A stretch of DNA of 64,000 nt, from assembly GCA_963682055.1 (NCBI GenBank), contig OY821749.1, forward strand, positions 24,249,631 through 24,313,630, read 5' to 3'. The DNA is from Primula veris (lineage: Eukaryota; Streptophyta; Magnoliopsida; Ericales; Primulaceae). This document shows positions 14,240 to 64,000 of this stretch, one piece after another. Each line of letters opens with the position of its first letter. The stretch's first letter is position 1. The translations under genes were made by a program, and so were the position numbers. The notes beneath the pieces were generated by a model. The model was not told the DNA's origin and made no database searches. It saw nothing but the letters and a program-made list of their open reading frames with translations.

Positions 14240-14961
14240 TATATGGTTCGGTGGAGTTACAAATACATTAAAATGATACATGAATAAATATACTACATGT
14301 CATCTTGAAAGAACGACAAAAAATTTGTTATATACACTACATGTCATTTTGAAAGAACAACAAAATATATACCAAATTTGATGAAACAAAAAATTCCAAA
14401 AGTTAATAATGAAAATTTTGAAAAGAGTATAATTTAACGTTTGAACTAAAAATGATCGGTTCCAAAAAATAGGGTTTAGGGTAGTTTGTTACTGTCAATA
14501 ATTTTTCTGTTAAAATTGAGACGCTTGTGCATTGCAAAGCACCATTACAATGGACAATTTTCAGCTGACACCCTCACACCACAGCAAATATCTTTTTCGA
14601 CCTACTTTTAAAATGGTTTCATGAGCTTTCCATTCTTCAGATTTTATCTAGCATGCATTTTATGTATGGAGTGGAGATAAAGCCAGGTTATAGAGAGCCT
14701 TTTATTTCAATGTAGCCCACATCGGGTTTGTAAAGAGGAACGCAAGTGATCGAATCCTCAGGATACGTCGAACCTCTGGTGCTTCAACAATCAATCTAAA
14801 AAGGGTGGGTTGGCTAAATATGCCACACTTGTCCTAGTTTAATTGACGACTTCCGTTTGTATATCAAGACATGGTCGAGATAAGTTATGGAATTATCTCA
14901 TAGAGTTTGCTTGCTTTGGTCTACTCTCCGGTTTCAGTATTATATTCTTTCGACAATGTTA

Positions 14962-15064
14962 ACATATTACTATATGAAAGTTTTGTAGTTATATTGTGTA
15001 AACATATTACTATATGAAAGTTTTGTAGTTATATTGTGTAAACATATTACTATATGAAAGTTTT
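14962..15064. repeat. 40-bp tandem repeat, copy B counterpart
   Basis: Same array of about 2.6 units as at 8828-8930, apparently identical in sequence. Confidence 0.88.
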
Positions 15065-15541
15065 AAATTCACGAAAATGTAGGGGATCATTAAACAACAA
15101 AAACATGTAACATATACTTCAAGAAAACCTAAGGACACATTGAAAAAGTATTTTATTTTACCAGTATAAAAATTTGGGAAATGGCAAAAATAATTAAAAC
15201 ACATCCTAAAAATTAAACGAGAATGACCATTCCAAATATGAACAGAAATAACGAAGACAACTACCATTAAGTGCAAATCAGAATTTCGTATAACAAATAT
15301 TTTCATTCTGGTAGTTGACATCACATAATCTATTTGCTTCACCTTTGTGCAATATTTACCATCTCACCATATTTCTCACAATTAGCTAATTAGCTAGAAA
15401 CTCTTTTCTTCTTCTAGATATGGGCAATATTATTTATGAAAAATGAATAAAATTAAGGTGATGAAAGTATTCAAACAATAACTGAACTATTATTATCAAT
15501 GGACATCAATCACTACATGTCATTCTTCATCACAATCCGTA

Positions 15542-16861: not shown

Positions 16862-17934
16862 TAATGGAGAAATTTATAAATTTTGTGACCTCTTTCTGGT
16901 CCAACAAAAAACTGAATTAGCAAACAAGAAAAAAATTAACAGTCAAATAATAAAGCTTAAATCTAAAGACATAGATGATATGGCACAAAAAAGAACCAAG
17001 ATAAATCTGGCGCCTACTTAGCTAGAAAAATAAAGACTTGAAAACGAAACAAGATCAACATCAACACAGTTTTTGCTAATCATCTTTTGGTTTAAAGAGT
17101 AAGACTTTAATGACATGACTCAAAAGATAACCAAGATAAATCCTCGGGATAAGAAACTTGAATTAAGGATTCAACTTTTCGCTCAATTAAATCCTACAAT
17201 ATTTGGGTCTCAAGAATATTTGTCGAAATTCTATAAAGCTAAAACTGCCTAACAAAGGACATATATTTATATAACAAACGGCACAAAGAGCATATATCAA
17301 ATTAGGTTGCATATCAAACAGTACAAAACTCATAAATTACATAACAAACTGCATATTATAAAAAAGACATCCCAATTAAACTGCATGTAAACGCATACCA
17401 AACTGTAATTTGGGTAAATAAAATGCCTTACATTTAGAAAATACTAATTGCAAGAGCCCTAGTTATCATAGCCTAAAAATTCATTAGTACACAAAAATAA
17501 ACCATTAACAATTCTTTTTTTCGAAAATCAGACAAACATATTAATTAATCAAACAATTCAATATATTTTTAAAAATAAATCTCAAGCCCTAGAATCAATA
17601 AATGTGGGTGATAAATGCTTACAAGTTTAACTGATTAATGCGGTTTCTGAAGTGGGAACCTACAACATATATACGTTGTATATAAATATATAAAAAGACA
17701 CATAAACAATTAGTTTGTATAAGTTTAGGATCGGGTTGTAGACTTATAGTGGAACATGGAAATATGGGTAACAGATAGAAAAAAGCAATTGAAGATTATT
17801 TACCCAATTAGTATATGATATCTCTGGTGAATCCAGATTAATTCCAGGATAACAGGATCACGATTAAATACAACGAAAACAAAGCCACCTTCTAACCAAA
17901 TTCATTAGGGAAAACCGAATACAATATATTATTT

Positions 17935-29025: not shown

Positions 29026-29221
29026 ACAGTATTACGAAATTACATGCAATTTTGACCAGACAAGAACTTGTATCAAAATTGTCGGAATGAAAATTTTCAA
29101 TTATATTTTAAATTTTATGATTAGATTTATAAAAATTCATTTCGACAATTTTGATATAACCTATAAGTCGGTTAAAATTATACGTAGTTTTGTAATGGAT
29201 AATTAAATAAGAACAAAGTGA
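29026..29221. mobile_element. degenerate Stowaway-like MITE
   Basis: Contains the same inner inverted blocks as the intact element at 58712-58946 (ACGAAATTACATGCAATTTTG against AAATTATACGTAGTTTTGTA, and CAAAATTGTCGGAATGAAA against TTTCGACAATTTTGATA). The outer CTCCCTCCGT ends are worn to GTGAGTA-like sequence. Confidence 0.75.
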
Positions 29222-29816
29222 GTAGTCTATATAGAATTAACATTTCACTTATCAAACCTTTAGGTTTACATCTTTTAAATTTAAAAATCTAACTCAACAT
29301 GCTTATTAGCAGTGAAAAATTCGTCAGATTTGTATAGTTTGGAGCAAACTCATGATCTCTTGCTCTTTATCACCACTCTAACTTAAACAATATAAGAATT
29401 TGCTCTAAATAATTGACCATGTAACTCAACCTTTTTCGGGAGATCTTACATTTGTAATTAAAAAGTAATTTATCGAAAGACATTCTTGACCTTTAGTTCT
29501 AGGGTCAGAAAAGGTAAATGACAAGCCAACCTAGAATGTACGTACACACACATTCACCCACTATAACTTTTCAATATGTTTATTACTATTCCCACATTCT
29601 CCACTTAAATAAAATAATAATACAGTCGTAACTTGACAAACAAATACACACTCCTACATACACACACATAATAAACCAAAAATATATTTAAAAAAAATAC
29701 ACAGAGATAAAGCACAACCATCCCAAACAATTCCTTTTACCTGCTTTTCAAACCACTTTCAATAATAGAGCTGATCACTTTCTCTATCTCTCTCTTGATC
29801 ACCATTTTCTTCATCC

Positions 29817-31223
29817 ATGGATACTGCTCAATGGCCACAGGTAAAGACATAACTAAACTCCAAATCCACTCTTATCTTTATTGTAAATTTTGCTTTCTTA
29901 AAGCGTTATTTATGTGGATATAAGGCTTGCAAAGCCATCTTTTTCTTTAAACCTTTTTCCATTCACTTTACCACTTTTTTTTTCACTTTTTTTCCCTTAT
30001 GATTAATATTAGATAATAAAGGATGTCAGAGAAGATTATGTTTTTTTTAGTTGTGCCTGAGAGCTAATTTTCCTCTTTCTTCTTATTTTCATACATCTAA
30101 ATTTATTTTCTATTTTCTTAACTAGGGTTTTGATCTTCACTGATCTGTATGATCATGAAGCCCAGTCTTTTTTTAGGTGGGTGTGGGTAAATACTGGATA
30201 CTTCTATGAATCATGTTCTTACTTTTTATTTTTCTTGTATGCTTTTTAATCATATAAAACTTATGAATAAAATCAGAGATTTCCCTCGTTCATATAAAAA
30301 AAAAAAATACTTGCAATTGTTTTTTCCCTCTTTTTCCTTCATTTTTTTTAGTTTTTTGCCTTTTGTAGGAGGTGGTGGTGAAGCCAATGGAGGAGATATT
30401 GATACCAGTTAACAACAACAACAACAACAACAACAACACAACATGCTTAAACCCAAAGGGAAATAATGGAAATGATAACTCTTCAATTGAGAGAAAAATG
30501 AGGCCTCAAAGAGCACAAGCTGTGAATTGTCCAAGGTGCAACTCTACAAACACCAAGTTTTGCTATTACAACAACTATAGTCTCTCTCAACCAAGGTACT
30601 TTTGCAAGACTTGTAGAAGGTATTGGACTGAGGGTGGATCCCTTAGGAACATCCCTGTTGGTGGTGGTTCAAGAAAGAACAAAAAAACACCTTCTAATTC
30701 ATCTAATAATTCCTCAAACTCCTCAAAAAAGCCTCCCCATTTAGGTCCTAGTACTAACACTCTTGGTACTAATCATGATCTAAATCACAACCCTAAATTG
30801 CTTGACCAAGGGCAAGATCTTAACTTGGGTTATGATTTCAAAACTATTTCTCAGCTTATCCAAGTGCCCAATTTTGAAGACAATGACAATAAGTCTCATC
30901 TTTCAGCTTTAGAACTCATGAATGGAAATAGCAATAACTCATACATGACGGCTCCCGGTATGCCTATACATAACGATCATATGTATTCATCAGGGTTTTC
31001 TTCTTTGCCAACACTTAGTTTTTCTCTTGATGGGATTGGAAATAATGGCTATGGGAGTATACATGGGGTGGAAGAGAGTGATAATATTGGAAGGGTTTTG
31101 TTCCCATTTGAGGATTTAAAGCAAGGATCAAACACTAATGATCTTAATTTGGAGATTACTAGAGATCAGCAAGGGGATTCTACTGGCTACTGGAATGGAG
31201 TTTTAGGTGGTGGATCTTGGTAA
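29817..31223 (+). CDS. Dof zinc-finger transcription factor, 2 exons
   Basis: Plant-specific nuclear transcription factor; Dof domains bind AAAG core sites. Exon 1 (29817-29840) encodes only MDTAQWPQ. Exon 2 (30369-31223) continues [10 protein letters not shown], giving 292 aa in all. The MDTAQWPQE[IV]VVKP start and the [12 protein letters not shown] end are typical of the Dof group that includes Arabidopsis DOF2.4, DOF3.6 and DOF5.1. I do not assign an orthologue. The Dof domain spans about residues 58-112, with the CX2CX21CX2C zinc ligands at about C62, C65, C87 and C90, followed by the basic GGGSRKNKK tail. An (AAC)n tract encodes a poly-Asn run near residue 24. The rest is Asn/Ser-rich, as usual for this family. 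Starting at the exon 2 GTG would miss the conserved MDTAQWPQ, so the two-exon model is preferred. Confidence 0.95.
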
Positions 31224-46312: not shown

Positions 46313-46313
<1 letters not shown>

Positions 46314-49300
46314 TGGGAGATGCAGTAGCAGAGAAGATAGAGTATTTCAAAGCAGTAACAGGTGTAGACGACACCGATTTATGCACCGATATCCTCACTG
46401 CACATAACTGGGACCTTGAACAAGCCATCAACTCCTTCACCACCAACACCGATAACCATCCTCCCGTTGCCACCTCATCATCTTCCCCCTCCTCCTCGGC
46501 CAATCCTCCGATGACCCAACCGCTGCTGCAGCAACAGGAGTTAGGTCTCGTCGCCCCTCCGGGTATTGCGTGGAAGCTTGTTACGCTCCCGTTTTCGATT
46601 ATTGCTGGAACTATTGGGCTTGTCTCTGGTGCCGTCGGTTTAGGTAAAAAAAAAAAGAACTAGTTTTCTTTTTCTTTTAACCTTAAATAGCCTGAATTGT
46701 TGGCAAAGATTGAACCTTTAATCGTTTATTTGGTTTAACAACACTATTAGTGATGTGGGTAATTCTCAAATTCATGGTTATTCAATTTTACAGTAGGCCT
46801 TGCAAAGTTTTAGTTTTATGTGGAATTCCAGTTAGGAGTAATTTACTAGAACTAGGTCGCCCTCCAGGTATCGCTTGGAGGATTGCTACGTTTCCGTTCT
46901 CCATTATTGCAGGAATCATAGGGCTAGTCTCCGGTGCTGTCGGTTTAGGTAATTTTTTGAGTTTTTTAACTTTAAAAGCTCGTATTGTTGGTAAAGATGA
47001 CCTTTTTAATCGATGATTTTGTTCTAGAACACTATTGGTCATGTGGGTTGGACTCATATTGAGGTAAATTAATGCCTTGCAGAGTTTGGGTTTTTAGGGT
47101 TTTTTAGTTAGGCTAATTAACTAGAGTTGGGTCTCCTCGCGCCTCCGGGTATTGCATGGAGGCTTGTTACGCTCCCGTTTTCTGTTATTGCTGGAACCAT
47201 GGGGATGGTCTCCGGTGCTGTTGGTTTAGGTAATTTTTTTAGTTTTTGTGCTTACAAAGATTGAAATTTTTATGGTTTATTCCGTTTTAGAACACTATTG
47301 GTCATGCAGGTTGGACTCTTATTGATGTTATTCAGTGTCTTGCAAAGTTTGAGTTTTTAGGGATTTTCAGTTAGGTTAATTAACTAGACCGCGGTTAGTC
47401 TCCGGTGCCTTTGGTTTAAGTACATTTTGGCAGTTTTTATATCAAGTAGAAAAGATTAAATTGTTGGTAAAGATTAAAGTTTTAATTGTTTATTTTGTTT
47501 TAGAACACTATTAGTTATGTGGCTTGGACTCAATTTGAGGTTATTCAAATTTAAGGTAACTCAAGTTTACAGTATTGCAAAGTTTTAAGCAGTTAAGTGT
47601 ATTTTACTAGAGCTGGGCCTAGTAGCGCCTCCAGGTATCGCTTGGAGACTTGTTACGCTCCCGTTCTCCATTATTTCCGGAACCATAGGGCTAGTCTCTG
47701 GTGCCGTCGGTTTAGGTAATTTTTTATTTGAAAAGCTCGAATTGTTGGTAATGATTAAACCTGAAATTGTTTAATTTTGTTTTAAAACACTAGTAGTATC
47801 TGGTGCCGTCGGTTTGGGTTGTTTTTTTAAAGTTTTTTTTGCTTAAAAAGGTTAAGTTTTTAATCGTTAATTCTTTTTTAGAACATTATTGGTCTTATGG
47901 GTTGGACTAATATTGAGGCAATTCAAAATATTTAGTCGGTTAGGTGTAATTTACTAGAGCTAGACCTTGTCGCGCCTCCGGGTATTGCTTGGAGGCTTGT
48001 TACGCTTCCGTTCTCCGGTGCCGTTGGTTTAGGTAATTTTTTGAACTAATTTTAATGAAAAAGATTAAATTGTTGGTAAAGATGACCTTTTTAATTGTTT
48101 ATTTTGTTTTAGAACACTACGGGTGTGTTTGGAACCCGGAAAATATCACGGAAAAGAAAAGAAAAGTAAAGTAAAATAAAGTAAAACCAAGGAAAATGAA
48201 CATGAAATCATTTTCCGGTCATGTGTTTGGAAGGTTGGGAAATCAAGAGAAAAGATAAGAAAAAAAGGGGAGAGAGAGATAGCTAGTCCCAATTTTCCCA
48301 TTTGTTTTCATTTTTCTCCCACTTTTGGAAGGAAAATGGTTTCTCTCATTATACACAAAGTTTTCCCTCACTTTCTTTTGTTTTATTTTCCATTGGTTTT
48401 ACTATACAAGCAAACGCAAGAAAATATTTTCTCGGTAAATCATTTTCATTTTCCCATGAGTTTTCCGGGTTCCAAACACACCCTAATAGTCTTGTGGGTT
48501 GGATCTATTTTGAGGTACAGTGGTTCAATTCTAAGATAACTCAAATCTACAGCAATCCTTGCAAAGCATTGGTTTAATAGGAAATTCCAGTTGGGTGTAA
48601 TTTACTAGAGCTAGGCTTAGTCGTGCCTCCGGGTATCACTTGGAGACTTGTAATGCTCTGATTTTCTATTGTTGCCGCAACCCTACGGATAGTCTCCGGC
48701 ACCGTCGGTTAGGTAGATTTTGAGTTATTAATATTAATAAAAAAGATTGATTTGTTTAAATAGATGACATGTTCAGTCATTTAATTTGTTGTCAAACACT
48801 GTTAGTCGGTCATGTGGGTAAGGCTCATTTTAAGCCAATTCAGTTTTAGTGCAGGCCTTTGAGGGTGTGTTTGGAACCTGGAAAACGTCATGGGAAAAGA
48901 AAAGAAAATGAAAAGAAAGGAATTCAAAAGAAAATTAGCATGAAATCATTTTCCGCTCGTGTTTGGAAGGTTGGGAAAGCGACGAGAAAATGAAAATAAA
49001 ATCAAATGTTTTATTCATTTTCTTAAGACTTAATTTTAAATTAAATACTTATTTCTCAAAGAAGCACATATTTAAAAAAAAAAAACTTATTGGGGAGAAA
49101 TGAGTGCCACGGGAGAGACATAATTGGGTGCTAATGTAGGTAGGAGAGATAGAGAGGGAGAAATGGGTGTTACCCTGGAGAAAGACGCAAATGGTTGCTG
49201 CAGTAGACTGAGGATAGATAGAGAGTGTGAGAGGAAGAAAGAGTTTTCTTTCATTTTCCTCCCATTTTGGAAGGAAATTGGTTTTTCTCAATTTGTACAC

Positions 49301-52300
49301 AAAATTTTCTCACACTTTCTTTTGTTTTCTTTTTCCTTAGTTTTCTTATTAATCCAAACACAAGAAATCGTTTTCTCAGGAAATCATTTTCCTTTTCCCA
49401 CACATTTTCTGGGTTCCAAACACACCCTAAGAGTTTCAGTTTGTACGAATTCAGTAAAGGTAACTTTTTTAGTCAGTTAGGTATATCTTTTACAGTCCTA
49501 CACTGTCTATTGTGCTTTGCCAACGTAGTTTTTAATTTTGGGTTCAATTAGGTATGATTTATAAGACTTATCAAGACAAAAGGGAATATATTTTTTTCAA
49601 TGAATTAGGTAATACTGTCAAGTTGATATATTGGGTAATAGAGGATCCCTTTTTCCTTCGCTGCCGATCCCTAGGATTAATCTGCGGTGATGTTTGGTTA
49701 GGTAAATCATGAATTGTTTATTCCACTTGAAAGCTTTTCCACTAGAAAGCTTTGGTGGTTCGTAAAGATAACTATTAATTGGGTTATACCAGTATCCAAC
49801 ACTATTCGTCATGTGGGTTCTATCCATCGTTGGGAAATATGATTTTACTAAAAAAACACTTGAATGATTTTTTTAATCGTTTATATTAGAATCCAACAGT
49901 ATTGATCTTGTGGGTTCGATCCATTTTAAGTTAATTCCCTTTTATGAAGGTCCTGCAAATTATCAGTTTTTTAGGGTCCTGCAAATTGCAGTTAGGTTTA
50001 ATTTACTACACTTATTAAGTGTACTTTCAGTTAGGTTAACTAGGTCTCGTCAGGGTGTTGCCTGGAGATTTGTAACCCTTCTGTCTCTCTCATTGTCAGA
50101 ACCCTAGGCCTCATATCTGGTGCTGTAGGTTTAGGTAATACCGTAATAACGAGTTACCAATTTTACTAAAAAAGCTTGAATTGTTAATAAAGATAATCTT
50201 AATTGTTTTTCTGGTCATGTGGGTTATACTCATTTTTAGCCAATTCAATTTTAGTGTAGGGCTTTCAAAGTTTCAGTTTTTAGGGAATTTCATTAATGAT
50301 AGCTGTTTCAATCATCGAAGTATGTTTTTGTCCATCACTGCCTTAAGCACTTTGCCCATGTAGTTATAAACTTTGGGAGCAATTAGCACACTGCCTTTAG
50401 AACATTTCTTTTTCTGTTTAGTCACACATTTTGTGGATTGCGGGTATAAGGTGAATTTGAAATACTGGAAATAGGGCTCCTGTTGTCCCTCGTTGGTGGA
50501 ACCGTAGGCCTCATTTCTAGTGCAGTTGAATTTGGTAATTTTGAATCACCAATTTTTCTTAAAAGCACAATTGTTGGTAAAGATGATTTTTTGAATCATT
50601 GATATTAATCTCCAACACTATTGGTCATGTGACTTGGATCCGTTCTAAGCTAATTCAGTTTTATGGAGGCCTTGCAAAGTTTCAGTTTGTAGAGAATTTC
50701 AGTTAGGTTTAATTTATTTTTAAACACTCCCCGTGTGCTTTAGACTCATTTTATGCTAACCATTTTTTCAGAAGCTTTGCCCTTGTAGTTTCAATTTTGG
50801 GGTTCATTTAGATATATTATACTACTAGATTTATATCGCGAAAAGTAATATCTTTTCTGTTTGGTCACTCATGCAACGAATTGCGATACTTGAATTTGAT
50901 ATATTGTCTGTGATGATGGGGGCTCTCCTGTGTTGTTTACTGTCGTTTTGTATTGTTTTAGGTCTAATTTCTGGTGCCATTAGTTTAGGTATTGTTGAAT
51001 TACCAATTATACTAAGAAACTGAAATTGTTAGTAGAGATAACTTCTTAATCATTTCTATTGTTCTCAAATACTGTCGGTTGGGCAGCCTGAACTTATTTT
51101 AAGTTGATTCGTTTTTATGGAGACCTTGCAGACTTTCACGTGCCATTTCAGTTCTTAGAGAATTTCACTTGGGTTAGCAATTCTACTAAAAGCTAAAACT
51201 GTAGTATGCGCAACTTATTAATAATTTATGATTACAAAAAAAATAACTTATTAATAATTTATATTATTTTTCAACAGGTTTATGGGCTGTCGGAGGTATC
51301 CTATCATACTCCTTATCCACTGTAGGGCTCACCTCCCCCCGTAACTCGGCCTCCACGTCATCATCTCCTTCAGAAGCTGCGACCTTTGTATATGATTTTC
51401 AGCAAATCTACGGTTCAATCCACCCGAATTTCATACCTGAGGGGTTTAACGAAGCACTACAGAGGTCTCGGCATGAGTTCAAGCTCCTGTTCGTGTACTT
51501 ACACTCGCCAGATCATCCAGACACTCCGGCGTTCTGCGAGGGGGTTTTGTGTTCTGAGGTTTTAGCGGCATTTATTAATGAGAACTTTGTGGCGTGGGGA
51601 GGGAGTATTCGCGCTCCTGAGGGTTTTAAGATGAGTAATAGCTTGAAGGCGTCTAGGTTTCCGTTTTGTGCCATTGTTATGGCTGCTACCAATAACAGGA
51701 TTGCTTTGCTTCAACAGGTATAAATGTTGTTCATGAAATCAATTATTAGTCGCTTATTATAGTACAAGTTAGGAGATTATCGTGATAAAATTAAGCAATC
51801 TTTGATTCAATGTCAGTGCTTTTTATTAGCAGGATTGTCTTTTTTAGCGGGTTACTGCAGTTCATGATTCAGGATTTAAATAAATATTAGTTGGTTATTG
51901 CAATGAATGATTGTCTACACTGTCAAATTACTTCTGTTTTTTCTGTGTTGCTGAAAAGAACGAAGTTTAGGACTTGCATGGTTAGATCTTTTAAGCTCAA
52001 GTCCTTTTTATTTGCTTTAACAGATATAGCAATGATTGTCGGGTCCTTGAGGAATTTAATGAGTGTTACTTGGCTACTACGGGAAATGGATGTCCTTACT
52101 GTCAAATGTCTCTTGATGTTTGTTTGTGTTTTTTAAGATGTTGCTTAGGAATAGATTCATAGCTGAAAAAATAGAGTGAAATATGGGGCTTGCTTGGTCA
52201 GAGATTTTAAGTTTTAACCTTCAGAATGTGTTGCTTTATTTTCGAAATATTGGGATGCATATGATTGTATGCTGGATGTTTTAAGCTTTAATCATCTGGC

Positions 52301-54323
52301 TTTTCTTATAGTTAAGAAAAGATGATTGCTTATTTAAAAGGTCCAACCAGGCTCAGAGTCACAGCGTGACATGGGGTGCCATCGCTACCGCAAATTATAA
52401 TGAAAAATCATATTTTATTTTATGTTCTTTAAAATACTTCAGAAATTATGTACTTCACAACCCCAGAATCTCTGGCTCCACAGCTGGCTACAAGCACACA
52501 AAACCCAAGTAGTTATGATTAATAGCTTTACTTTACAGGTATAATCTGTTTTGCCATTAGAAAACTAAAAAGCTTTTAGCCTTTAGGAGAAGATGGTAGT
52601 ACTATTTGGGAAGATTGAAGTTTCGGTCAGCGTAGAACTTGTTGGAGGTTTCGTCGTTGAGTAATTTCTTTGTCTACGAGGGAAAAAGTAAAAGCTTGCC
52701 TTAGAATGTGACACTAATCAGAATTTCTGGATTTAATTTTGGCTGTCTTAATCCTGTATGAGTACTTCTTAGGGTCTTTGTTAGGTTTTATGTTTGTTAT
52801 AAGAATTGATACGTGCCTAAAACAAATAAGAAGAATCAAATCATCATAACACTTGAGTGATGATAATGGATAGAAGTTAAGGTTTGTTGTCTCGATGTTG
52901 AGCTTATTGTGACAAAATAGTTGGCATAACTTATATTTGGCATGTCTAATGTTTTTGGTTGTTACATTACAATTGCTCGAAGAATATTGAAAATGAACAG
53001 GAAAGATAATGACATTTACTCGGTAACGTCTAACTTGTTTCCGTGAAAGGAAATCGAGTAATGACTTACATTGGAGTTATAGGATATAGCTAAGCGTTGA
53101 TATGACACACAGTTCTTAGTGTAATGGACGCTTATTAAGCATAATTTGTTTATGGTTCTCAACCCACCTTTGGATTCGTTAATACACACCTTTCCATTTA
53201 TGAAGCACATTGATGAGGCAACCGAAATGTTCTTAGTCCGTTAGTAGTGGAAGCTTCTAGTGTGCAAGTCATGTATCTAGACTAGACACCTTGATCTCTT
53301 CAAAAAGTGAAATTTGATTAATACATTTAATACACCTAATTGTATACACATTCAAAGTAATTAACTGATGAACACGTCTTACACTCATTTCGTAATCGGC
53401 ATTTGAGAAGAGTTATGAAAGTCAACACAATGAGATTAAAAGTGTTTAGAAATCTTTCTTTGCTCTATTTTTGCTAAGTTTCATCTTTGTTAGTAAACTG
53501 ACTTTTCACTTTGTGCTAATAAATGTTCTATCTATTGGTGCAGGTAGAGGGACTCAAATCTACAGAAGAGATGGTGACCATATTACAGAGGGTGCTTGAA
53601 GAAAGTGCACCTGTGCTTGTTTCCGCTAGGCTTGATGCCGAAGAACGAAGAACTAACATTCGTCTGCGAGAGGAACAAGATGCTGCGTATCGAGCTGCAC
53701 TTGAAGCCGATCAAGTATATAACGTCTTCTTACTTTTATTGCTTTCTACGCTCTACTGATACCAAATCTACTACCTTTTCTATCTTTAGCTATCATTATT
53801 CTAGATTGCTTAATTCAAAGATTTGAAGTACACAGAATTAGGAAAATAATTTTAGTTTATGTTTTTAAGGTAGTATTTTATTGCTATCCACATGTTGAAT
53901 AATGTAGTCTTCTAGATATCACTGAACCCATGGAAGGGTTTGTGTTGTATGCAAACGGAGGACTTCATACGATGTCTGAACACGGTCATTTCAAATTTGA
54001 TGATATTGTATATTTGATCAAACAAATAACTATGTTACCAGCTTCTGTCATGCTAACTTAGTAAAAAGTCCTTTTTGGGTTTCGGGTACGCTGACTGATT
54101 AATATTTGAATATATACCAATTTGTGAAGTTTGTTGATTTTCAATTTACTCGTTGCTGAAACTTTGGAACCTTGTTCATTTGTCAGGCTACAGAAGGCCA
54201 GATGAAATTAAATATATTGAAATCTGTGTTTTAAATATCTGAAACTCTCAGATCTGTGTTTTAAATATCTGAAACTCTCAGATCTGTGTTTTAAATATCT
54301 GAAACACTCAACACTGTTATTTA

Positions 54324-54356
<33 letters not shown>

Positions 54357-55538
54357 CGCCCGCGCACTTGCGTGCGTGTATTTGTGTGTGTATATATATT
54401 GGGTATGTTTACTGGACTTTTATGATCTTACTATGATTTGTTTGTCAGGCTAGGGAACGGCAAAGGAAAGAAGAGGAGGAAAGGGTGGAAAGAGAAGCTG
54501 CCGAAGCTGAGAGGAAGAGGAAGGAAGAGGAGGAAGCTCGTGAAAGAGCCGCCCATGAAGCTATTGAGAAAGAAGCTGCTCTGGCTAGAATGAGAGAGGA
54601 AAAAGCGCTGTCTTTAGGCGCTGAGCCTGATAAAGGAGCTGATGTTACTCAAGTAATACTTCTTCTTTACCATACCTTCTTGAAACCTACTACTAAATTG
54701 GAGCACCAAATGCTTAATTTATATTCTGGATTTATTTTATAGTGTTTGTTGGTTCATGGAAATATCTTAACATATGAAATTCCCAAATAATGGTAGCACT
54801 CAAGTATATAAAGTACTCCAATGAGATTATTGACTCTGCTTCAGGACTAGACTCAGTGTGTTGATATTTTCACTGCTTTCTCATTTTATTTTCATGTTTA
54901 CTTCTAAAGTGTGTCCTTTGGTCTATATATTATCTTTTCAATAGGTTCCATAAACTAGTAGTTTGCTTTTCCAGCCCAATTGTCTGAAATTATCTCTGGT
55001 AGCGGTTAGCTGAATGGGTTGTTTGCACAGCAGCACAGATTCTTGTCCAAGATCCCAATTTAAATTGGAAAAGTCTGTTTTCACTAATTTTGTATTAAAT
55101 TTCTCAGTAGTTAGTACTAAGACTTGTGGCATTTCATCATTTTCTACGTTCCTAAAGCCGTTGCTTTTGCGGCACGTTTTATCTGAAAATAGTTTGATTT
55201 CCAGCACGAATTATCTTAAAATCTGTTTGCTAAATACGTATCTCGCGTAGTTCTTGGTTTTGGAACCCACTTCCTAAAACTTCCGCTTCATGATGATGCT
55301 ATTTCAGGTATTAGTACGCTTTCCCACCGGAGAAAGGCAAGGAAGAAGATTCCATTGTACCTCCACTATCCAAACTCTTTACGATTACGTTGATTCTTTG
55401 GGTTGTTTAGAAGTTGAGAGTTACAGCCTCGTATCGAATTTTCCTCGTGTTGTTTATGGCAAAGAAAAACTGAATATGTCTCTGAAAGAAGCAGGGTTAC
55501 ATCCACAGGCCAGCCTTTTTGTGGAGATCAGCTCATAA
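46313..55538 (+). CDS. PUX10: PUX10-like UBX protein (CDC48 adaptor), 5 exons
   Basis: Exons 46313-46643, 51278-51717, 53544-53714, 54449-54652 and 55308-55538 give 458 aa; Arabidopsis PUX10 is of similar length. PUX10 recruits CDC48/p97 to lipid droplets, where it helps extract ubiquitinated oleosins (known for Arabidopsis; inferred here). A UBA-like domain (about 1-45: DLCTDILTAHNWDLEQAI) is followed by a Ser/Pro linker. A hydrophobic hairpin (about 83-135: PPGIAWKLVTLPFSIIAG and VSGAVGLG from exon 1, LWAVGGILSYSL from exon 2) is the likely membrane or droplet anchor. A thioredoxin-like UAS domain (about 145-257), a Glu/Arg-rich coiled coil (about 290-380) and the UBX domain (about 383-458: VLVRFPTGERQGRRF, with the FPR turn as NFPRVVYG) complete it. 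The exon 1/2 junction splits a Gly codon in the hairpin (phase 1). Intron 1 holds the exon array described separately. Confidence 0.95.
46850..46948 (+). other. intact exon-like copy 1 (33 codons, phase 1-1)
   Basis: Preceded by ...TTTACTAG and followed by GTAATT. Spliced after exon 1, the split G plus AA gives Glu and the frame reads ELGRPPGIAWRIATFPFS and on to SGAVGL without a stop, rejoining exon 2 in phase. A second acceptor, CCTCCAG, inside the copy is also phase-1 compatible. It lacks two codons compared with the other copies. No evidence of use. Confidence 0.7.
47125..47229 (+). other. intact exon-like copy 2 (35 codons, phase 1-1)
   Basis: Acceptor-like TTAACTAG before, GTAATTTTTTT after. 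Frame ELGLLAPPGIAWRLVTLPFS through GMVSGAVGL, no stop. It would insert 35 residues in frame. Confidence 0.72.
47611..47715 (+). other. intact exon-like copy 4 (35 codons, phase 1-1)
   Basis: Acceptor-like TTTTACTAG before, GTAATTTTTT after. Frame ELGLVAPPGIAWRLVTLPFS through GLVSGAVGL, no stop. The closest coding match to exon 1 by eye, and it also has the alternative CCTCCAG acceptor. Confidence 0.72.
47958..48032 (+). other. exon-like copy 6 with in-frame 30-nt deletion
   Basis: Acceptor-like TTACTAG before, GTAATTTTTTG after. The frame ELDLVAPPGIAWRLVTLPFS joins directly to GAVGL. Ten codons are lost but the frame is kept, for 25 codons in all. Confidence 0.7.
48121..48483. mobile_element. 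foldback MITE (GGGTGTGTTTGG ends), 363 bp
   Basis: Ends GGGTGTGTTTGGAACCCGGA and TTCCGGGTTCCAAACACACCC are inverted copies, with an A/G-rich left arm and T/C-rich right arm. Probably PIF/Harbinger-like: TAA follows, while the left flank TAC is a near match. It is inserted in a spacer between copies 6 and 7 of the exon array. Confidence 0.85.
48863..49427. mobile_element. second foldback MITE of the same family, 565 bp
   Basis: Same GGGTGTGTTTGGAACCTGGA ends and inner arms as the 48121-48483 element, with a longer unrelated centre (about 49020-49220). It is in the spacer after array copy 7. Flanks TGA and TAA, so the target duplication is imperfect. Confidence 0.83.
54221..54310. repeat. 30-bp tandem repeat x3 in PUX10 intron 3
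   Basis: GATCTGTGTTTTAAATATCT plus GAAACTCTCA occurs three times (54221-54250, 54251-54280, 54281-54310), nearly identical. Followed at 54323-54395 by a TG-rich microsatellite. Confidence 0.93.
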
Positions 55539-56990
55539 GAGCGAAAGGCGTTTAATCCGTTTCGCTAATCTAAACTCAAAAAAATCATTAGCATATGTTG
55601 CTTCGCTCTCTTTTTTATGGGTATCAGATTCTGTAATGATGCCACATAAAGATGTGGATGTTTGATTCTCTTAAGCCTGCAATTTCAAGTAAACGACAGT
55701 GCAACTATTTAATCTTAATAAATATGTTGACCCTAGAAATTAGAAAAATTCAGTGCGTTTCTTGTTGATAAATACTTTACTTGATTGCCGCTTTTGTTTC
55801 TTTTTCTATACTGTTTGGCAGAGGATACTGCAAATCAGTTGTTAGGAGCTTAGTTAAGTTAGAAAACCTTAACAGCGGATGATATTAAAGTCATAAAAAA
55901 AACTAGCCTTCTGGTATCAATAGTATTTTCTAAGCAGTAACAACAAAAGAATCTATGAAGGATAGAAAATATCGTACATGCCAGAACTTGATTCAAATGC
56001 GAATGATTTGCTAAACAAGGCTATTTTAATTCTTTATAAAAAAAAACTTATTTGGCAAATTTCTGTACAAGTTTCTTGTAAAATACCGACTTAAGTGGCC
56101 GCAATCAATCATTTTGACCTTCCTATGAAATATAAAGGTTTAGTTGAGTGTTATAAAGAACATATTCCAATTGAAGTTACATCTTAGTTGTTGGATTCTC
56201 ATTAACAGTAGTACATCATACGCAACGAGTCATTTTGGCCGTTCTATATAAATCACACACTACAAACCTGACTAGTGAAACAAAAAACTTAGTTCCTATT
56301 TATTAATTTCATCTCAACAACTCGGTCCTCGTGTATTTTACAACAACGGTTATACCGGAATCACCATTATAAGTCGCACCAACTCTGCTCGCTCTCACAA
56401 ATAAATGCTAATTTTATTCTAAAATAAATAAATAAATGCAATATTGTGTAACAAAAACCTTACCAATCCAAATTATGGAACACTTGTCAAAGTAAAAGAT
56501 TGCATCATGTTTAAATTGATACTCCCACATAATTATTTTCCTATCTGTTCCTAATATTGTGAGATACATTATATATTATAGTCCCAATTCAATTCTAGAT
56601 TCGTACCCCTACAACTATTATGAAACAAATAGGACACTTATCTCTGATCTCCGGATCTCCATTTTGTGCAGTCATAATAACAAATTTAATTTTTTAATTT
56701 TTATTATATATTAGACAAATTATGATTTAATAAATTAAAAAATAAATTTTACAACACAATAAAAATATATAACTCTAATGGATGGATACTGTATTAAATT
56801 TAATTATTAATTAAAAATTAAAAAAAACATAATAATTAAATATTTATTTTTAAAAATGTTATTCGCACTGGCCAAGACAAAAACCCCTAATCTCCTACAA
56901 CAACAGTAACACTAATAAAAAATCAATTCAAAATAGTCAAATATAATTGCATCTTTATCACTCACCTAAAAAACACAATAATAATCTTCA
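55539..56990. other. PUX10 3' UTR and intergenic
   Basis: No gene, RNA or complete transposon recognised. AT-rich, with short homopolymer runs. Confidence 0.45.
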
Positions 56991-57518
56991 TTATTCTCTC
57001 TCTCTCTCTCTCCGATTTTTCATCCCTCCCAACCCTTTTTCTCTCTCTAAAAAACAAAACTAGGGTTTTATTTTATTTTCCCTCTCTCTGTCATTTTTTA
57101 GGGCTACTAAAATTGTCTTAAAAATTCAATTTTTTTGATATAAATCTCTTTTTTTAGTCAATTATGATGGGGGATTGATTTTGTCAATCAGGCTAAATCA
57201 TCCCCTTCCCCCACAAACCTTTTATTTTATCATGTAAATAAAAATATTCATTTAGATTAAAACTTAAATTTTATATCAGATGAATGGCTAGGTCAATTAA
57301 AGAAATGGGAATGAATACGATTTGGTGTCGTTTTATGCCCTTGTTAGCAATTGTTTCTTATTCCGCAGCTTGTGAAGCGTTTTATGAACCACTTATCGTT
57401 TTATAGCATACAGTTTTTTTCTGCCAAAAAATGTGTTCTTTTATTAGTCTTGTGCAATTGTAATTAGGGTTATTTTTTAAATATTTTATTTGCTCTGACT
57501 TTGTGAGAATTCAAACGA
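56991..57518 (+). promoter_or_regulatory. WNK leader: CT-rich tract and upstream ATGs
   Basis: A (TC)n run (about 56997-57022) and CT-rich stretches with ACTAGGGTTTT, features usual around plant transcription starts, precede the WNK start by about 500 bp. Several short upstream ATGs with quick stops follow (for example ATGATGGGGGATTGA near 57163 and ATGAATGGCTAG near 57279). If transcribed they would be small uORFs. Confidence 0.45.
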
Positions 57519-60500
57519 ATGGATTCGGTTTCCGGGTCGGGTTTATTTTGGCCTGAGAGTGGGAAACCGAAAGCAAAGTTGGAGCTTGATGATGACGATA
57601 TAGTAGAGACTTCCCCGAACGGTCGCTATGTTCGGGTATTAATTTCTTTTATTTATTATGTATTTGTTTAGCTTGCTTGGCTAACATAATTATTATTGTT
57701 GTATTAATATGATTGTATGTGTATGCAATGATTTTCTTTGTTGTTCTGTAGTTCATATTACCGGAATTTGAATAGTTAACATGAAGATACGCCTAAATTG
57801 CCTGGTAGGACTTTATTTGATTGAAAAAAGTATTAGGCTGATTAAGGTTCGATCGTTTTCTTGTATCCGTATATGTATTTGTATCGATATATACATATTG
57901 GTTTGGTCGTATAAATATGTCAAGTAATTGATCGTGATGAAAAAGCCATATCCAGGACACCCCAAAATGGTCATTAGATTTGGTAATTTAAAATCTTCTG
58001 CGTTGCTCATTGCGCTGTTCGTGTCAGTTATTATTGTTATTTTAGTCAAATTTTGTTTATCTTTTAATGTTCATTGTTTTTGTTTGTCGTGTATATGGTT
58101 CATTTTACTAGAATATGTTTGATTTTAAGGCAACACAACTAATTAATTCTGTGGATTGCCAGATAGGCTTTATTCAAATGTAAGAAGGTCGTATTAGGTC
58201 AAAATTTGGATCTTTCCATTGGGTATTCTTCTTTATTAATACTATATACACATCTGTCTAGCCGTTTGTCCTTGTGTAAATGACTCTTTCCCTACAAGTA
58301 AACTCGTTATTTTTTTCAGGTTTTTGTGAGAGTTCTAGCTCTTGTCTAAATGCTGTTGATTTCCAAAAGTAAATATTAATATATTTAATATTGATGTAAG
58401 AGCTATGGAAAAACCATTTATTCTCTGTCCCATATTATTGTCCACTTTGTTAAATATATGTGACTATGTGAGGTATATTATAATGAAAGTGGACAGTTGT
58501 TTTGGGACGGAGGGAGTACTAAATTACCTTTGCCAATAGTGCTATGGAAAAAGACTTGAAAATTTCAACTTCTGCGGAATCTCCTGATTGAAGATAATTA
58601 TTTGTATATAGAATTGCCTTTGTGTGTCCCTTATGTACTCAACCATAAGCAAAGACAGAGTTCTGCAATGATGATGCTGTACAGATGGAAATGGGATGTT
58701 ATTCTTAGTTACTCCCTCCGTTCCCATTTAATTGTCCACTACGAAATTACGTGCAATTTTGACCGACTTATAACTTGTATCAAAATTGTCGAAATGAATT
58801 TTTTTAAAATCTAATCATAAAATTTAACATTTGAACTATATTATCAACTTTTGAAAATTTTCATTCCGACAATTTTGATACAAGTTCTTGGCCGGTCAAA
58901 ATTGCATATAGTTTCGTAGTGGACAATTAAATAGGAACGGAGGGAGTATTTAATTTCTTTTGCTACACCCTACATTCATTCTCTATGTGGATTTTAACTG
59001 ACTTATTGTGACTCTGGTGCATATTTTTGCTGTTAATAATATAAATACTTTCTATTGGATTCTGATCTTAACTTTCTTATTGCTGTCTAAGTGATACATT
59101 TCCCTGTTTTTCCTGTTTTCCTTTCTCCAGTATAATGAAGTCTTGGGGAGAGGAGCATGCAAGATTGTGTATGGTTCTCAACCCATCTTCAGCTCCATTA
59201 TCTGTTACTTTTGTTGTTACGGCATTCGGTAAAAGTAGCTTCTCATAGTCTTAACTGTGTTGTCCTGCTAAGACTGTTTTTTTTTTGCTGTTCGTGTAAT
59301 ATCAGGTATAGGGGGTTTGATGAGGTGGACGGAATAGAAGTTGCCTGGAATCAAGTTAGTCTTGACCAAGCTTGTCGTTCAAAAGAACATTTGGAAAGAA
59401 TACACTCAGAGGTCCATTTGCTTAAGACACTCAAACATGGAAACATCATTAGATCTTACTGTTCTTGGGTTAATGATGATAAGAAAACCATCAATATGAT
59501 CACCGAGTTGTTTACTTCTGGAAGCTTGAGGCAGTGAGTGTCCTTGAATTTCACATTCCCATTCATGTTGCTGCTCTTTATAAATATTAAACTTTTTTGT
59601 TTGGGGTCTTGTAGGTACCGCCGGAAACATAAGAGCGTTGATATTAAAGCAATTAGAAAGTGGGTTAAGCAGATTCTCCAAGGTTTACACTATCTGCATA
59701 GCCATAATCCGTCTATTATTCACAGAGATTTGAAATGTGACAACATTTTTGTGAATGGAAATACTGGAGAAATCAAAATTGGTGACCTTGGGTTGGCTAT
59801 TATCATGGAGCGCCCTACTGCCAGTAGCGTTATTGGTATGTATTTCTCGCCCTTTTCGTTAGTTATTTCATGAATATTAAATCAAAGGCCCGTAAAGTAT
59901 ATGTGGATTCTTCTTATTTTAGCTGCTGAGATACAGTGTGTAGATAATTTTAGATAGGTAACTAAAGTAACTGCTGATTTCATATCCTTTTATGATAAGG
60001 TGTAATTAGTTTAACTGATGAGATAGGTTTAGATCATCCGGTCAGTAAAGACAATGAATGTTTTCTGCACCGTCTTTTCTAAGAGTATCATGAGGCAAAA
60101 GGAAATGCTCTGTTTTGATGTGAGCTATGTCAAATTTTAGTTGCGCACTTGTTTTTCAAACTTTAAATTCATAGAAAAGCTAAGCTGTTCTCTAGGTTTT
60201 ATCTTAGTTTTGGTTCTATTGAAAAACGAGTATATAATTTTTAATTTTTATTTTGCATATTTGTAATAGGTACTCCTGAGTTTATGGCTCCAGAGCTTTA
60301 TGAAGAGGAATACAATGAATTAGTCGACATATATTCTTTCGGCATGTGTATGTTGGAGCTGGTGACCTGTGAATATCCATATAGTGAGTGCAAATATCCA
60401 GCACAAATATTTAAGAAAGTCACATCTGTAAGTTCTCTTTCACCCCACAAATAAGATGATTCTTTTTTCACAAAGGCATATCTTCTTAGTCTCTTTCTGT

Positions 60501-61991
60501 TCTATTTACTATGTAGGGTGTAAAACCAGCTGCCCTTGGAAAAGTGGAGAATATTCAAGTTAAGCAGTTTATCGAGAAGTGTATAGGTCCAGTTCAGCTG
60601 AGGCTAAGTGCATTCGAATTATTACAAGATCCCTTTTTTTCGTTTGAAACCCTGAACATGCCCCCTCAGATGCACAGTTTTGCGCCCGAACCAGAAGAAG
60701 AGCCGAAACCTGATTCTGTTACCATGGAGATAGACTTTGGGCATAACCAGATTTCAGATATTACATCTGCTAAGGGCTCAGGCGAAACCAGTCATGTTTC
60801 TGCTGTAGAATTGAGAAGATCTAATGGTAAATATGAGTTTATTCTAGAAGCTGATACGAATAATGATGATTTAGTTGTTTTCAACTTGCGCATCTTCGCC
60901 TCATGGGGTAAGTGATTATTTTTCTACCATCCGTTATATTTGATTTACGTGAAGTCCTATATTCTTTCGTTATTTAATTTTTTTTAGTTATTACGCTTTC
61001 GTTTTTGTCCCACCTTTACCCCTATACATTTGTATTAAAACACTCTTATTTATCTAAATCATTCTTTCTTCTCAAACATTATGTCTAATTTCTATACAAT
61101 GTTGATTTAAAATAGTAGTAGTGTTGTTTTAGAAGTATATAATACTCCTCTCTCTAACCGGAAAACTAAAAAAACGTTATATTTAGATATGAATAAAGTA
61201 CTACTCGTAACTAAAACTGCGTAGTACACAATATAAGGATTAAGGACGGAGCAAAATGGTTTCCCCAGTGGTTGGGGTACCTAGCTTACTACCTCCAGTG
61301 TGGGGTTATTGGATATAAAAAAAAAAGGGACAAAAATGGGACAGACAATTTTAAGGACTAAAAATGGAATAAATCTAAATTCTCTTTTAAGGAAGAATTT
61401 CAACTTGGTTGTTTCCTCAAAAGAATCTCCTGAATTTTGTCTTAAGCAGGTCTTTTGAAGAATGTACATTTTGAATTTGACCTTGTTTCTGATACTGCTA
61501 TCAAGATATCTGGTGAAATGGTCGACCAATTTGTTGTCGAAAGTGAAGATTTAACTTTTGTAGCTGAGTTGATCGACACCCTCATCCTCGAGCTTGTACC
61601 TGGCTGGATATCATCATTTCAGAATTCCAGTCAGTCTGATATTAAACTTGAAAATAATGTTTCTGAAAATCAAGATATAGATATAAGCAATAATTCAAAT
61701 GAGTCTGGATTTGAGAGTTGCGAAGATGGTGGGTCCGGGTCCGTGGTAATGAATGAAGTGGTGAAGATTTCAGACGTTTCATTTTCATTTGATGCTTTAT
61801 CTAATGATTTTGGATCGTTTAGCGTATCTGCTCAGTATTTAGGAGATGAAGATCATAATGATGAGTTGAAAACGGAGCTCGATGCTATTGATATGGAATA
61901 TTGTCAACAATTTCGGGAACTTATCAGAATGAGAGAGGAAGCAATTGAGAGTGCAAAGAGAAAGTGGAGTGCGGGGAAGAAGTTGATGTGA
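57519..61991 (+). CDS. WNK serine/threonine kinase, WNK8/WNK10-like, 7 exons
   Basis: Exons 57519-57635, 59131-59168, 59306-59533, 59615-59835, 60270-60427, 60517-60907 and 61450-61991 give 564 aa. WNK (with-no-lysine) kinases regulate ion transport, circadian output and sugar/G-protein signalling in plants. The kinase domain is about residues 40-305. The glycine loop [10 protein letters not shown] carries the family's relocated Lys (K50), and VAWNQV has Asn where other kinases have the ATP Lys. HRDLKCDN (164-171), DLG (185-187, the WNK variant of DFG) and [17 protein letters not shown] follow. An OSR1-C-terminal-like domain begins near 350 ([19 protein letters not shown], then [19 protein letters not shown]). 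The end [20 protein letters not shown] resembles WNK8/10. Exon 2 is only 38 nt and carries the glycine loop. Confidence 0.94.
58422..58516. mobile_element. short Stowaway-like element in WNK intron 1
   Basis: CTCTGTCCCATATTATTGTCCACTT and the inverse of AAAGTGGACAGTTGTTTTGGGACGGAGGGAG form short inverted ends around about 40 bp. The left end is worn. Confidence 0.7.
58712..58946. mobile_element. intact Stowaway MITE, 235 bp, WNK intron 1
   Basis: Inverted ends CTCCCTCCGTTCC and GGAACGGAGGGAG, with TA on both sides (58710-58711 and 58947-58948). The halves are near-perfect inverted copies (ATTTAATTGTCCACTACGAA against its complement). Reference copy for the decayed family members at 14009, 29026 and 33449. 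Confidence 0.95.
61255..61330 (+). mobile_element. possible SINE-like tRNA-related block in WNK intron 6
   Basis: GGTTTCCCCAGTGGTTGGGG and, about 35 bp on, GTGTGGGGTTATTGGATA are spaced like A and B boxes. They are followed by an A run (61317-61327). No target duplication found. Confidence 0.35.
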
Positions 61992-62868
61992 ATATATTTT
62001 TTTTTGATATTTATTCTCTTTTATAGAAAATGAAAGAGTTTTGAGGGTTTTTTTATTTGGGAATTTGTTTATTTCAGTGAGTAGTGGTTTTGTGCTTTTA
62101 TAGTGTGATTCATCTTGTCAGGCGAATACGGTCTTGATGAACGAGATGTTTTGCCAACAATGGTTTCGAAAACAACTATTTTTTGGATGACTTTTGATAT
62201 TGGCTGCCCCTTATTTTATTTTTTGGGTTAGAGTACCTTAATTATTAGTATTGACGATTGGAAAATAATCTTCCAGTTGGTGTTCGTAGTGAAATATTCA
62301 CCTTCAGTTGACTCTAATCTTGTATTCACGTCTCGTTTTCTTCTCTTTTCTGTTGAAATTACAGTTACACCTGTTTTGGTGTTTCATTGGATTTGAAAAA
62401 TGTCGTTTCAGCTGCTAGGGAAAACCTGTGTTTTAGTCTTCCTAGATTTAAGAACGATATTCATTGTTTATTTCTTATCTGGACATAAAAATTGGTGCTA
62501 TCTTTTCTTAAAAAAGTGCTCTTAAAAAAGTGCGAAGGGTGAAGATCTATGTTTGGATTTTCTCTTAATTATGTCTATTTGTGTCATAAAGTTCATAGAA
62601 ATGTAAACTAGAAACATAAAAAGGAGCTATACCACTACTAAAATTGAATCTGAAAAACACCATGCCTAGATCCAATCTCAAACACATTTTTATTCTTTAA
62701 TAACATAAAAAGAATAACAGATTTTGAACATCAATAAATCAAACTCCTCGAGTGGGGCTCAAAACATATTAATATAAACATTAACAAAGAAAAAAATCCT
62801 TCTCATTTCAAAAATTCAAGTGGAACCACTTGTTGATCTTAATCATCATCGTATCTTAATCATCATCG
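61992..62868. other. convergent 3' region between WNK and nodulin-like gene
   Basis: Two 3' UTRs face each other here. No additional gene seen. Short duplicated blocks: CTTAAAAAAGTGC at about 62507-62530 and ATCTTAATCATCATCGT at about 62836-62869. Confidence 0.5.
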
Positions 62869-63720
62869 TCAGATCTGCAAGCTGATTAATATCACAATTA
62901 CAGCAGTAAAAACCGAAAACGGAGCTTTCAAGATAGAGGAAGAAGATGAGATTGAAGCAGAAGGAGCCATTGGGATAGAGCCAAAGACATTGGAATAAGA
63001 AGGAGCTGAGGCACTTGGATCAGAAGATGGTGTTGATGACCCATCTCCTGCTATTGACACTTGGAGCTTCTGGTGTTTTTCACAGTGACCTTTTACACCA
63101 CTTGTGAAGTAAAAGTTACCAGCTTTGGTAAAATTAAAGAGTGAGTTGCCATTGTTCATGAACAATATTGGATCTTCCAAGTTGCAGCTATTAAATGACT
63201 CCTCACTCACTTGGATCAGTGAATCTTGGCTTGGTGGATACAGAAACACTGCAATCGAAAACATATTGAGAAACTTGTTACTGTTAAGCACAATTTCATT
63301 TCTTGAACCTTAAAGCAAAAAACTTTAAAGCGGCAATGAACAAAGCCCAAGTTGCGAAGGATTCGGTTGGCCAGCTCAAAAGCAGGGTCCGGAAAAGCTT
63401 AAAGTTTACGCTGGATGAATCTTGTTTTTTTTCCGAATAACCCAACTTATTTGTTAAAAAAGTACAGCCAAATAAGCTCAAAACTACTAGTGTAATACTG
63501 TGATTGATTAGAGATAAGAAGGAAACTTACATAGAGAGTCTCCAAGTTTGAAGATGTTATTCTTAGCCCAGTCTGTATATATTTTAGGATTAGCAGAGGT
63601 TGGTATTCCCCAAGCATGTAAATCTCCCACTTTAAATTGGTAGCATTTCACATTACTACTTTGAATAATCATCAAGAGAATAAGCAAGACAGCATATGTT
63701 GTATTTCTCACAATGCCCAT
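62869..63720 (-). CDS. early nodulin-like protein (phytocyanin fold), 2 exons
   Basis: Exon 1 63720-63531 and exon 2 63248-62869 (minus strand) give 189 aa. A signal peptide (about 1-25, ending near SSNVKC) is followed by a plastocyanin-like domain (about 26-127: YQFKVGDLHAW, FKLGDSLLFLYPPSQDS, then SFNSCNLEDPILFMNNGNSL and FYFTSGVKGHCEKHQKL). The copper Cys is replaced by Ser (FTSG) and the first His is absent, as in ENODLs, so it is not expected to bind copper. The two Cys (SC and HC) keep the disulphide. A Ser/Pro-rich linker and a C-terminal hydrophobic tail suggest an arabinogalactan-type, GPI-anchored cell-surface protein (family inference). Divergent orientation to anything beyond the window edge. 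Confidence 0.93.
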
Positions 63721-64000
63721 CTCTTTCTTTCTCTCTCTTAAAACAAGGAGAGAATTTGGACTAGGGAGGGGGGAAATGAACGTTTGAGGTGACTATTTAG
63801 ATTGGTGAATGATTTAGGTAGGGATGGGAAAAAAAAAAAAAAAAAAAAAAAGGTAAATCCGTCCCCTGACCGAATCTATATGGATTGGGGTGGGTTGAAT
63901 GTCCAAAAAAAATCAATCCGTCCCGCCCCAATCCGCTATATATTTTGCGGGTTAGGTTAGGGTTGAGGTTCACAAACCACGGGTTAATCCGTTCTCAATC
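63721..64000. other. nodulin-like promoter side and repeat-like edge
   Basis: CT-rich leader on the minus strand (63721-63745), then an A23-like run (about 63829-63851). Beyond the run lies a GC-richer stretch (GTCCCGCCCCAATCCGC) that looks like the start of a dispersed repeat cut by the window edge. Confidence 0.4.

Follow-up and report, generated by a model that had tools for sequence, protein, structure and literature searches.

Copies of the end of exon 1 arrayed in intron 1 of a PUX10-type gene of Primula veris

The PUX10-type gene and its intronic copies

We analyzed a stretch of 64,000 nt of the Primula veris genome (assembly GCA_963682055.1, contig OY821749.1, positions 24,249,631 to 24,313,630 of the forward strand), hereafter the window, which contains a gene that we assign on its predicted protein to the PUX10 type and, within the first intron of this gene, an array of copies of the end of exon 1. 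The gene model is complete: its five exons encode 458 residues and all introns are bounded by GT and AG (Table 1). The domains UBA_4 (residues 7-46), FAF1 (147-228) and UBX (376-455) follow one another in this order, each above its cut-off, and hydropathy places a hydrophobic segment between the UBA and the FAF1/UAS-like regions. The best 120 of 594 protein matches were 56-77% identical across 98-100% of the query and, among the matches listed, many carry the name plant UBX domain-containing protein 10. The domain set, its order and the names of the relatives agree with an earlier note on this DNA, which had called the gene PUX10. In a tree of 39 proteins (the window protein and 38 of 209 retrieved relatives, these combining the overlapping sets of the best 120 of 594 and the best 120 of 128 protein matches), the sister of the window protein was P0001 (100/97), followed by Escallonia and Apium (91/76). 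As predicted, the canonical protein reads as an ordinary PUX10, an adaptor anchored in membranes that serves protein disposal.

The array is real, and it is unusual. Intron 1 (46644-51277), which splits the hydrophobic region into an exon 1 part and an exon 2 part, contains eleven extra copies, whole or partial and all on the + strand, of the terminal 105 bp of exon 1; they are numbered here C2 to C12, after the exon 1 tail itself (C1). The duplicated piece is the last third of exon 1 and encodes the hydrophobic membrane segment. The copies were located with a profile built from copies 1, 2, 3, 5, 7 and 8, so that five of the eleven matches helped to build it. Ten of the matches presented E < 0.001 and the eleventh (50960-50991) presented E = 0.06; a twelfth line, on the minus strand (E 2.9, 0.0 bits), was dismissed as chance. 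The top score of the same profile was 1.2 bits in the remainder of the window (1-46000 and 51800-64000) and 2.2 bits in five shuffles of the intron. A repeat search agreed with these matches and a BLAST self-comparison presented off-diagonals of 73-78% identity, which bears out the earlier proposal of about eleven further copies in one intron. The unit length of 275-290 bp given at that time is roughly right, although start-to-start spacing is actually 311 and 275 bp for the first copies and 213-378 bp for later neighbors (repeat family D1). The intron units differ among themselves by 20-39%.

Each copy had also been credited with its own donor and, where preserved, an acceptor. Both observations hold: GT follows the 3' end in 12/12 copies, exon 1 included, a count that arises partly by construction since the 3' ends of the degenerate copies were placed by hand at the homologous point, and AG is found at the homologous position in C2, C3, C5, C7 and C8. 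The 5' part is absent from C4, C6, C9, C11 and C12, and altogether seven of the eleven extra copies are broken or truncated.

The copies are confined to this gene among the matches listed. Searching the 436.5-Mb genome at the DNA level with the unit yielded at least nine matches, of which 9/9 lie inside the PUX10-type gene (query included), and a protein search with the encoded segment yielded at least seven, again with 7/7 inside the gene (exons 1 and 2 included). No copy of the unit or of the encoded segment was found outside the gene among the matches listed for this genome, and on this ground we rejected the idea that the unit had spread as a dispersed or mobile element. We also considered and rejected a second PUX10 with an array. 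The sole other matches, 44-53% identical, lie on a sequence likewise labeled C3 (a chromosome or contig, not the copy C3) and show no comparable hydrophobic stretch when the strand that carries the gene is translated in its three frames and only open stretches of at least 40 aa are considered. This locus (L025, G000:C3:35173800-35182800) is a distant UBX-domain relative.

Two insertions that resemble miniature inverted-repeat transposable elements (MITEs), a label of our own, lie among the copies. The first one has at least 47 matches listed in the genome, itself included (40 of 563 candidates scored), and its nearest other copy among them is 93% identical. Because the nearest MITE copy is this similar and the intron units stand 20-39% apart, the array would be older than the first insertion.

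Table 1. Positions, in window coordinates, of the exons, the copies of the exon 1 tail and the insertions
Feature	Position	Strand	Remarks
Exon 1, coding part	46313..46643	+	Start codon to phase-1 donor; UBA domain and first copy of the membrane segment
C1	46539..46643	+	Exon 1 tail (ELGLVAPPGIAWKLVTLPFSIIAGTIGLVSGAVGL), the segment that the array copies
C2	46850..46948	+	Open, 99 nt with an in-frame 6-nt deletion, phase 1-1, AG/GT; neutral private changes
C3	47125..47229	+	Open, 105 nt, phase 1-1, AG/GT; private changes neutral
C4	47391..47422	+	Truncated; 3' end and GT kept
C5	47611..47715	+	Open, 105 nt, phase 1-1, AG/GT; exon with fewer private changes than its own intron (pooled with C7)
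C6	47787..47819	+	Truncated; 3' end and GT kept
C7	47958..48032	+	Open, 75 nt after in-frame 30-nt deletion, phase 1-1, AG/GT; exon with fewer private changes than its own intron (pooled with C5)
MITE-like insertion in unit 7	48121..48483		Inverted-repeat ends
C8	48609..48712	+	Dead: in-frame TGA and 1-nt deletion close to the donor
Second MITE-like insertion	48863..49427		Terminal inverted repeats similar to those of the first
C9	49643..49705	+	5'-truncated
C10	50040..50138	+	Diverged; deletions including one of 1 nt (frameshift)
C11	50476..50538	+	5'-truncated
C12	50960..50991	+	Weakest (E 0.06); 5' part lost
Exon 2	51278..51717	+	Second hydrophobic stretch LWAVGGILSYSLSTVGL, then FAF1-like region
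Exon 3	53544..53714	+	
Exon 4	54449..54652	+	
Exon 5	55308..55538	+	UBX domain and stop codon

Reading frames, splice sites and predicted protein segments

C2, C3, C5 and C7 (99, 105, 105 and 75 nt) contain no stop if translated in continuation of exon 1, which ends in phase 1, and the joined readings begin with ELGRPPGIAW for C2, ELGLLAPPGIAW for C3, ELGLVAPPGIAW for C5 and ELDLVAPPGIAW for C7. The normal stop is reached in all six isoforms that we constructed, whether one, two or four copies were inserted. These four copies are potential exons, judging from frame and splice dinucleotides, and they alone combine the similar length, common frame, conserved splice sites and homology by which mutually exclusive exons are recognized (PMC3228551). 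Exclusive use would require more: exon 1 holds the start codon along with the first copy, and swapping the latter needs a donor at 46544|46545 (TTAG|GTCTCG), which is in phase and a poor match.

Similarity to exon 1 starts in each copy at its own acceptor, and the bases upstream of the AG differ from those of exon 1 at the same point. For this reason the most plausible source of the acceptor AG is the junction of a duplication: the duplicated segment would have begun inside exon 1, and the acceptor would have been made where the intron (...TTTACTAG) became joined to the exon (...AGTTAGG). The locus thus presents homologous tandem copies with intron sequence, as expected of tandem exon duplication, but not a whole exon copied with both of its original splice sites, only the 3' part of exon 1 having been copied. 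Exon 1 has the donor GTAAAA, and C2, C3, C5 and C7 have GTAATT. On the acceptor side, C2, C3, C5, C7 and C8 all present TAG and a pyrimidine fraction of 0.38-0.50, and exons 2-5 present CAG and a fraction of 0.56-0.75. How strongly the copies would be included is, from such sites, a guess.

The sites might instead serve as splicing decoys, the copies competing for the exon 1 donor or the exon 2 acceptor and the inclusion of the broken C8 or C10 leading to transcript decay and less PUX10. The GT that follows every (partly hand-placed) 3' end and the stop that C8 would bring are compatible with this possibility. However, the best-kept sites belong to the in-frame copies, which would not trigger decay, and we regard decoys as very unlikely.

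In-phase mini-exons of 21 or 27 nt in C4, C6 and C9-C12 were rejected as evidence of use, as their sites look inherited from the parent. The 27-nt in-phase stretch of C12 (50962-50988, GLISGAISL), preceded by a T-rich AG and followed by GT, is a possible micro-exon whose acceptor looks better than those of the full copies. TTNGATYTG and CGATT, which we take to be motifs of intron enhancers, were not found on the + strand of intron 1.

Hydropathy was scanned with a 19-residue window and a threshold of 1.6. The canonical protein presents a single long hydrophobic stretch, and the C2 and C5 isoforms present a clear second one. With C3 as the only inserted copy the result is borderline (1.61-1.67, in combination with exon 2), and in the two- and four-copy isoforms C3 presents none; the shortened C7 yields no peak over the threshold. 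A cassette would insert a second exon 1-like part and a short linker. Of the four readable copies at least two, if spliced in, would likely provide the protein with one more membrane segment. The AlphaFold2 model of the relative P0001 is uninformative on this point, its confidence score pLDDT being below 50 in the hydrophobic region.

In Arabidopsis, PUX10 is reported to present two transmembrane spans with both ends cytosolic, and its membrane region is needed for location at the envelope and suffices for it without UBA and UBX (2024 paper, PMC11410653, which cites two 2018 papers for location at lipid droplets). Because two spans are reported there, one copy may encode one span and not a hairpin. 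The earlier note had described the copies as membrane-hairpin exons: the repeated piece does code for a hydrophobic membrane segment, but the hairpin was an assumption.

Substitution patterns and the origin of the copies

We consider it probable that the array was formed when part of an exon was duplicated in tandem several times in succession and that it consists mostly of decaying pseudo-exons bypassed by the predicted exon 1-exon 2 splice; perhaps one to four of the copies are usable cassettes. A unit of ~280 bp, made of the exon tail plus intron, would have been duplicated locally and repeatedly, the copies becoming older in the direction from exon 1 to exon 2. Variants shared between copies would have been transmitted by way of exon 1, either through descent or through gene conversion, and private changes would have accumulated unchecked. 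A tree of the intron units groups U1-U7 (93/92), U8 with U10 (81/77) and U9, U11 and U12 (88/84), none of these groups reaching 95.

The changes private to one open copy have, as a pool, the ratio expected of neutral sequences. Over C2, C3, C5 and C7 they amount to 5 synonymous and 10 nonsynonymous (5:12 when counting two codon-6 changes that stem from the C2 deletion), and the neutral expectation is 32.7% synonymous. A ratio of nonsynonymous to synonymous rates (dN/dS, or omega) of 0.3 was rejected on these changes (p 0.019), and the bias towards synonymous change that constraint predicts was not found in the pool of the four open copies. C5 and C7 contributed one synonymous and one nonsynonymous change apiece, which is too few to judge them. 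Elsewhere, the dead C8 together with C10 presented 9 synonymous and 18 other changes (stop-codon changes among the 18), and exon 1 presented 4 and 1. The rate of private change in C2 and C3 is alike in the exon (13/191 sites) and in the intron (20/297 sites). Only one of the ten private replacements introduces a charged residue, N/Q/H, proline or a stop, against 31% expected, a difference that was not significant (p 0.14).

Several results weigh against this reading of serial duplication and decay. Pairwise dN/dS is 0.03-0.26 in 10/10 pairs. In a branch test, omega on the end branches of the copies was 0.24-0.37 (likelihood ratio test over the three best trees: p 0.04, 0.0013 and 0.008), and when the copies were taken singly C5 alone was significant, with p 0.0035 on two of the three trees. 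The private changes of C5 and C7, a pool chosen post hoc, affect 4/166 sites of the exon versus 26/243 of the intron (p 0.0016; p 0.076 and 0.045 for C5 and C7 singly). Using the intron as a clock and taking exon 1 as fully constrained, a nonsynonymous deficit was detected in 4/10 pairs (C1-C5 0.012, C1-C7 0.009, C3-C7 0.012 and C5-C7 0.039) and none in C1-C2 (0.26) or C1-C3 (0.24); with both members neutral, the deficit extended to 8/10 pairs. Both exon indels of the open copies, of 6 and 30 nt, are multiples of three. Finally, the expected gradient of age by position did not reach significance when measured by the divergence of the exons (rho 0.55, p 0.26, six copies).

The low pairwise dN/dS, the branch test and the few private changes in the exons of C5 and C7 favor the main alternative, in which C5 and C7, and perhaps C2 and C3, are functional cassette exons that are alternatively spliced, the enlarged or repeated membrane segment changing the choice of membrane or the topology. 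The open, in-phase copies with their AG and GT and the normal stop of the built isoforms fit it as well. Private changes are nevertheless neutral in C2 and C3, the acceptors are poor in pyrimidines, C7 gives no hydropathy peak, nor does C3 in the two- and four-copy isoforms, and no two-segment protein occurs among the 209 relatives examined, though the nearest one found is just 77% identical. Overall, we find this alternative unlikely.

What the low ratios reflect can be approached through the variable columns shared by C1, C2, C3, C5 and C7. All 11 are synonymous at that column, three of them sitting in codons that also bear a private replacement, and 34 of the 55 pairs of shared columns are incompatible with a single tree. 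The branch test is weakened accordingly, since it assumes the single tree that these columns contradict. Such incompatibility could suggest a reservoir for gene conversion: through exchange of sequence between the copies and exon 1, the array would supply the coding membrane segment with variation or repair it. However, 5/11 shared columns are transitions in CpG context, and repeated mutation gives the same pattern; exon 1, moreover, has a single private amino-acid change. A conversion reservoir seems to us most unlikely. When potential CpG columns were left out, third positions still differed more than first and second positions at p < 0.05 in 2/10 pairs (C1-C5 0.004 and C3-C7 0.038). As the private changes are neutral and the shared columns are synonymous and conflicting, we infer that the low pairwise ratio comes mostly from variation passed through exon 1, or from recurrent change, and not from use of the copies. 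Low pairwise dN/dS was thus set aside as proof of use. Stop-free frames were likewise set aside for lack of power, as 77-91% of neutral simulations (0.05-0.15 changes/site) keep the frame.

The uses proposed in the earlier note are mostly not supported by the substitution evidence. Isoforms with a lengthened or repeated segment could be formed in that four copies can be added in frame, but their actual production is unsupported, given the neutral 5:10 ratio of private changes, the poor acceptors and the one segment found in 209/209 relatives, where the sole protein with two hits presented overlapping matches to the same segment. The suggestion that the array tunes the level of PUX10 finds no support either, with the same neutral ratio, the same pyrimidine-poor acceptors and stop-free frames that are expected anyway. 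The lineage is poorly sampled, the nearest relative among the matches listed being 77% identical, and isoforms could still occur in it. Within serial duplication and decay, C5 and C7 might still enter transcripts in frame at a low level; if included, C5 would add a single segment resembling a membrane span, whereas C7, being shortened, would probably fall short of a complete one. A PUX10 relative from Zingiber (P0201) presents the hydrophobic segment without ~7 residues after the LPF motif, at a place similar to that of the in-frame deletion of C7.

Other features of the window, known systems and significance

Elsewhere in the window, a 3.5-kb direct duplication of 95% identity (8073-11527 and 14191-17686) carries in each half a minus-strand open reading frame (ORF) of ~440 aa (9386-10729 and 15542-16861), which we take by eye to be F-box-like. 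Positions 508-1552 hold a tandem array of 31/62-bp units around TTAAAATGACTCAGACTGTTTT. An inverted pair of 82% identity lies at 29033-29224 and 58710-58918, the ends of the latter resembling those of a Stowaway-type MITE, and an ORF within 30372-31223 contains what we assume to be a Dof-type zinc-finger-like stretch.

No description of a comparable array for PUX10, the UBX domain or plant tandem exon duplication was found in the titles and abstract openings of the open-licence papers listed. The Dscam clusters of flies reportedly arose by tandem exon duplication followed by alternative splicing. The PUX10 array resembles that type in that homologous exon-type segments with the same phase adjoin one another within a single gene. 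In contrast, it copies only the tail of the first coding exon, so that the acceptors of the copies would have to be new; the original cannot be skipped, because the start codon lies in exon 1, and use of the copies is putative.

PUX10 has a relative in UBXD8. The latter is a UBX-domain protein of the endoplasmic reticulum (ER) and lipid droplets with a membrane-inserted hydrophobic region as in PUX10, but this is described as one V-shaped hairpin region (PMC11130287). Arabidopsis PUX10 presents the same order of UBA, hydrophobic region and UBX, whereas the available text of PMC11410653 mentions no repeat of the hydrophobic segment. A further parallel may be drawn with Arabidopsis FLM/MAF1, which possesses mutually exclusive exons and whose relatives MAF2 and MAF3 present homologous intron stretches that are unusable or contain a stop (PMC3266260). 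Both cases concern a plant gene with alternative in-frame exons, actual or potential, next to homologous stretches that are unusable or stopped. According to the available text of that source, however, FLM/MAF1 involves one pair backed by translatome reads, whereas PUX10 presents eleven extra copies that would be additive, not exclusive.

A more far-reaching possibility, which we hold to be improbable, is that the number of phase-1 cassettes (zero, one, two or more) sets the number of membrane spans of PUX10, odd and even numbers flipping the side of the CDC48-binding UBX domain or the adaptor moving among lipid droplet, ER, peroxisome and chloroplast envelope.

The array is a clear series of copies of part of an exon, gathered in a single intron and decayed to different degrees, of which four have kept the frame, and it shows how cassette exons could arise from part of an exon when the duplication junction supplies the acceptor. 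It also calls for caution, since low dN/dS between exon copies can mirror the history of the parent exon together with recurrent or CpG change, and not use. If any of the copies is used, PUX10 would offer a natural opportunity to test how a CDC48 adaptor is directed to one organelle or another by the number of its membrane segments.

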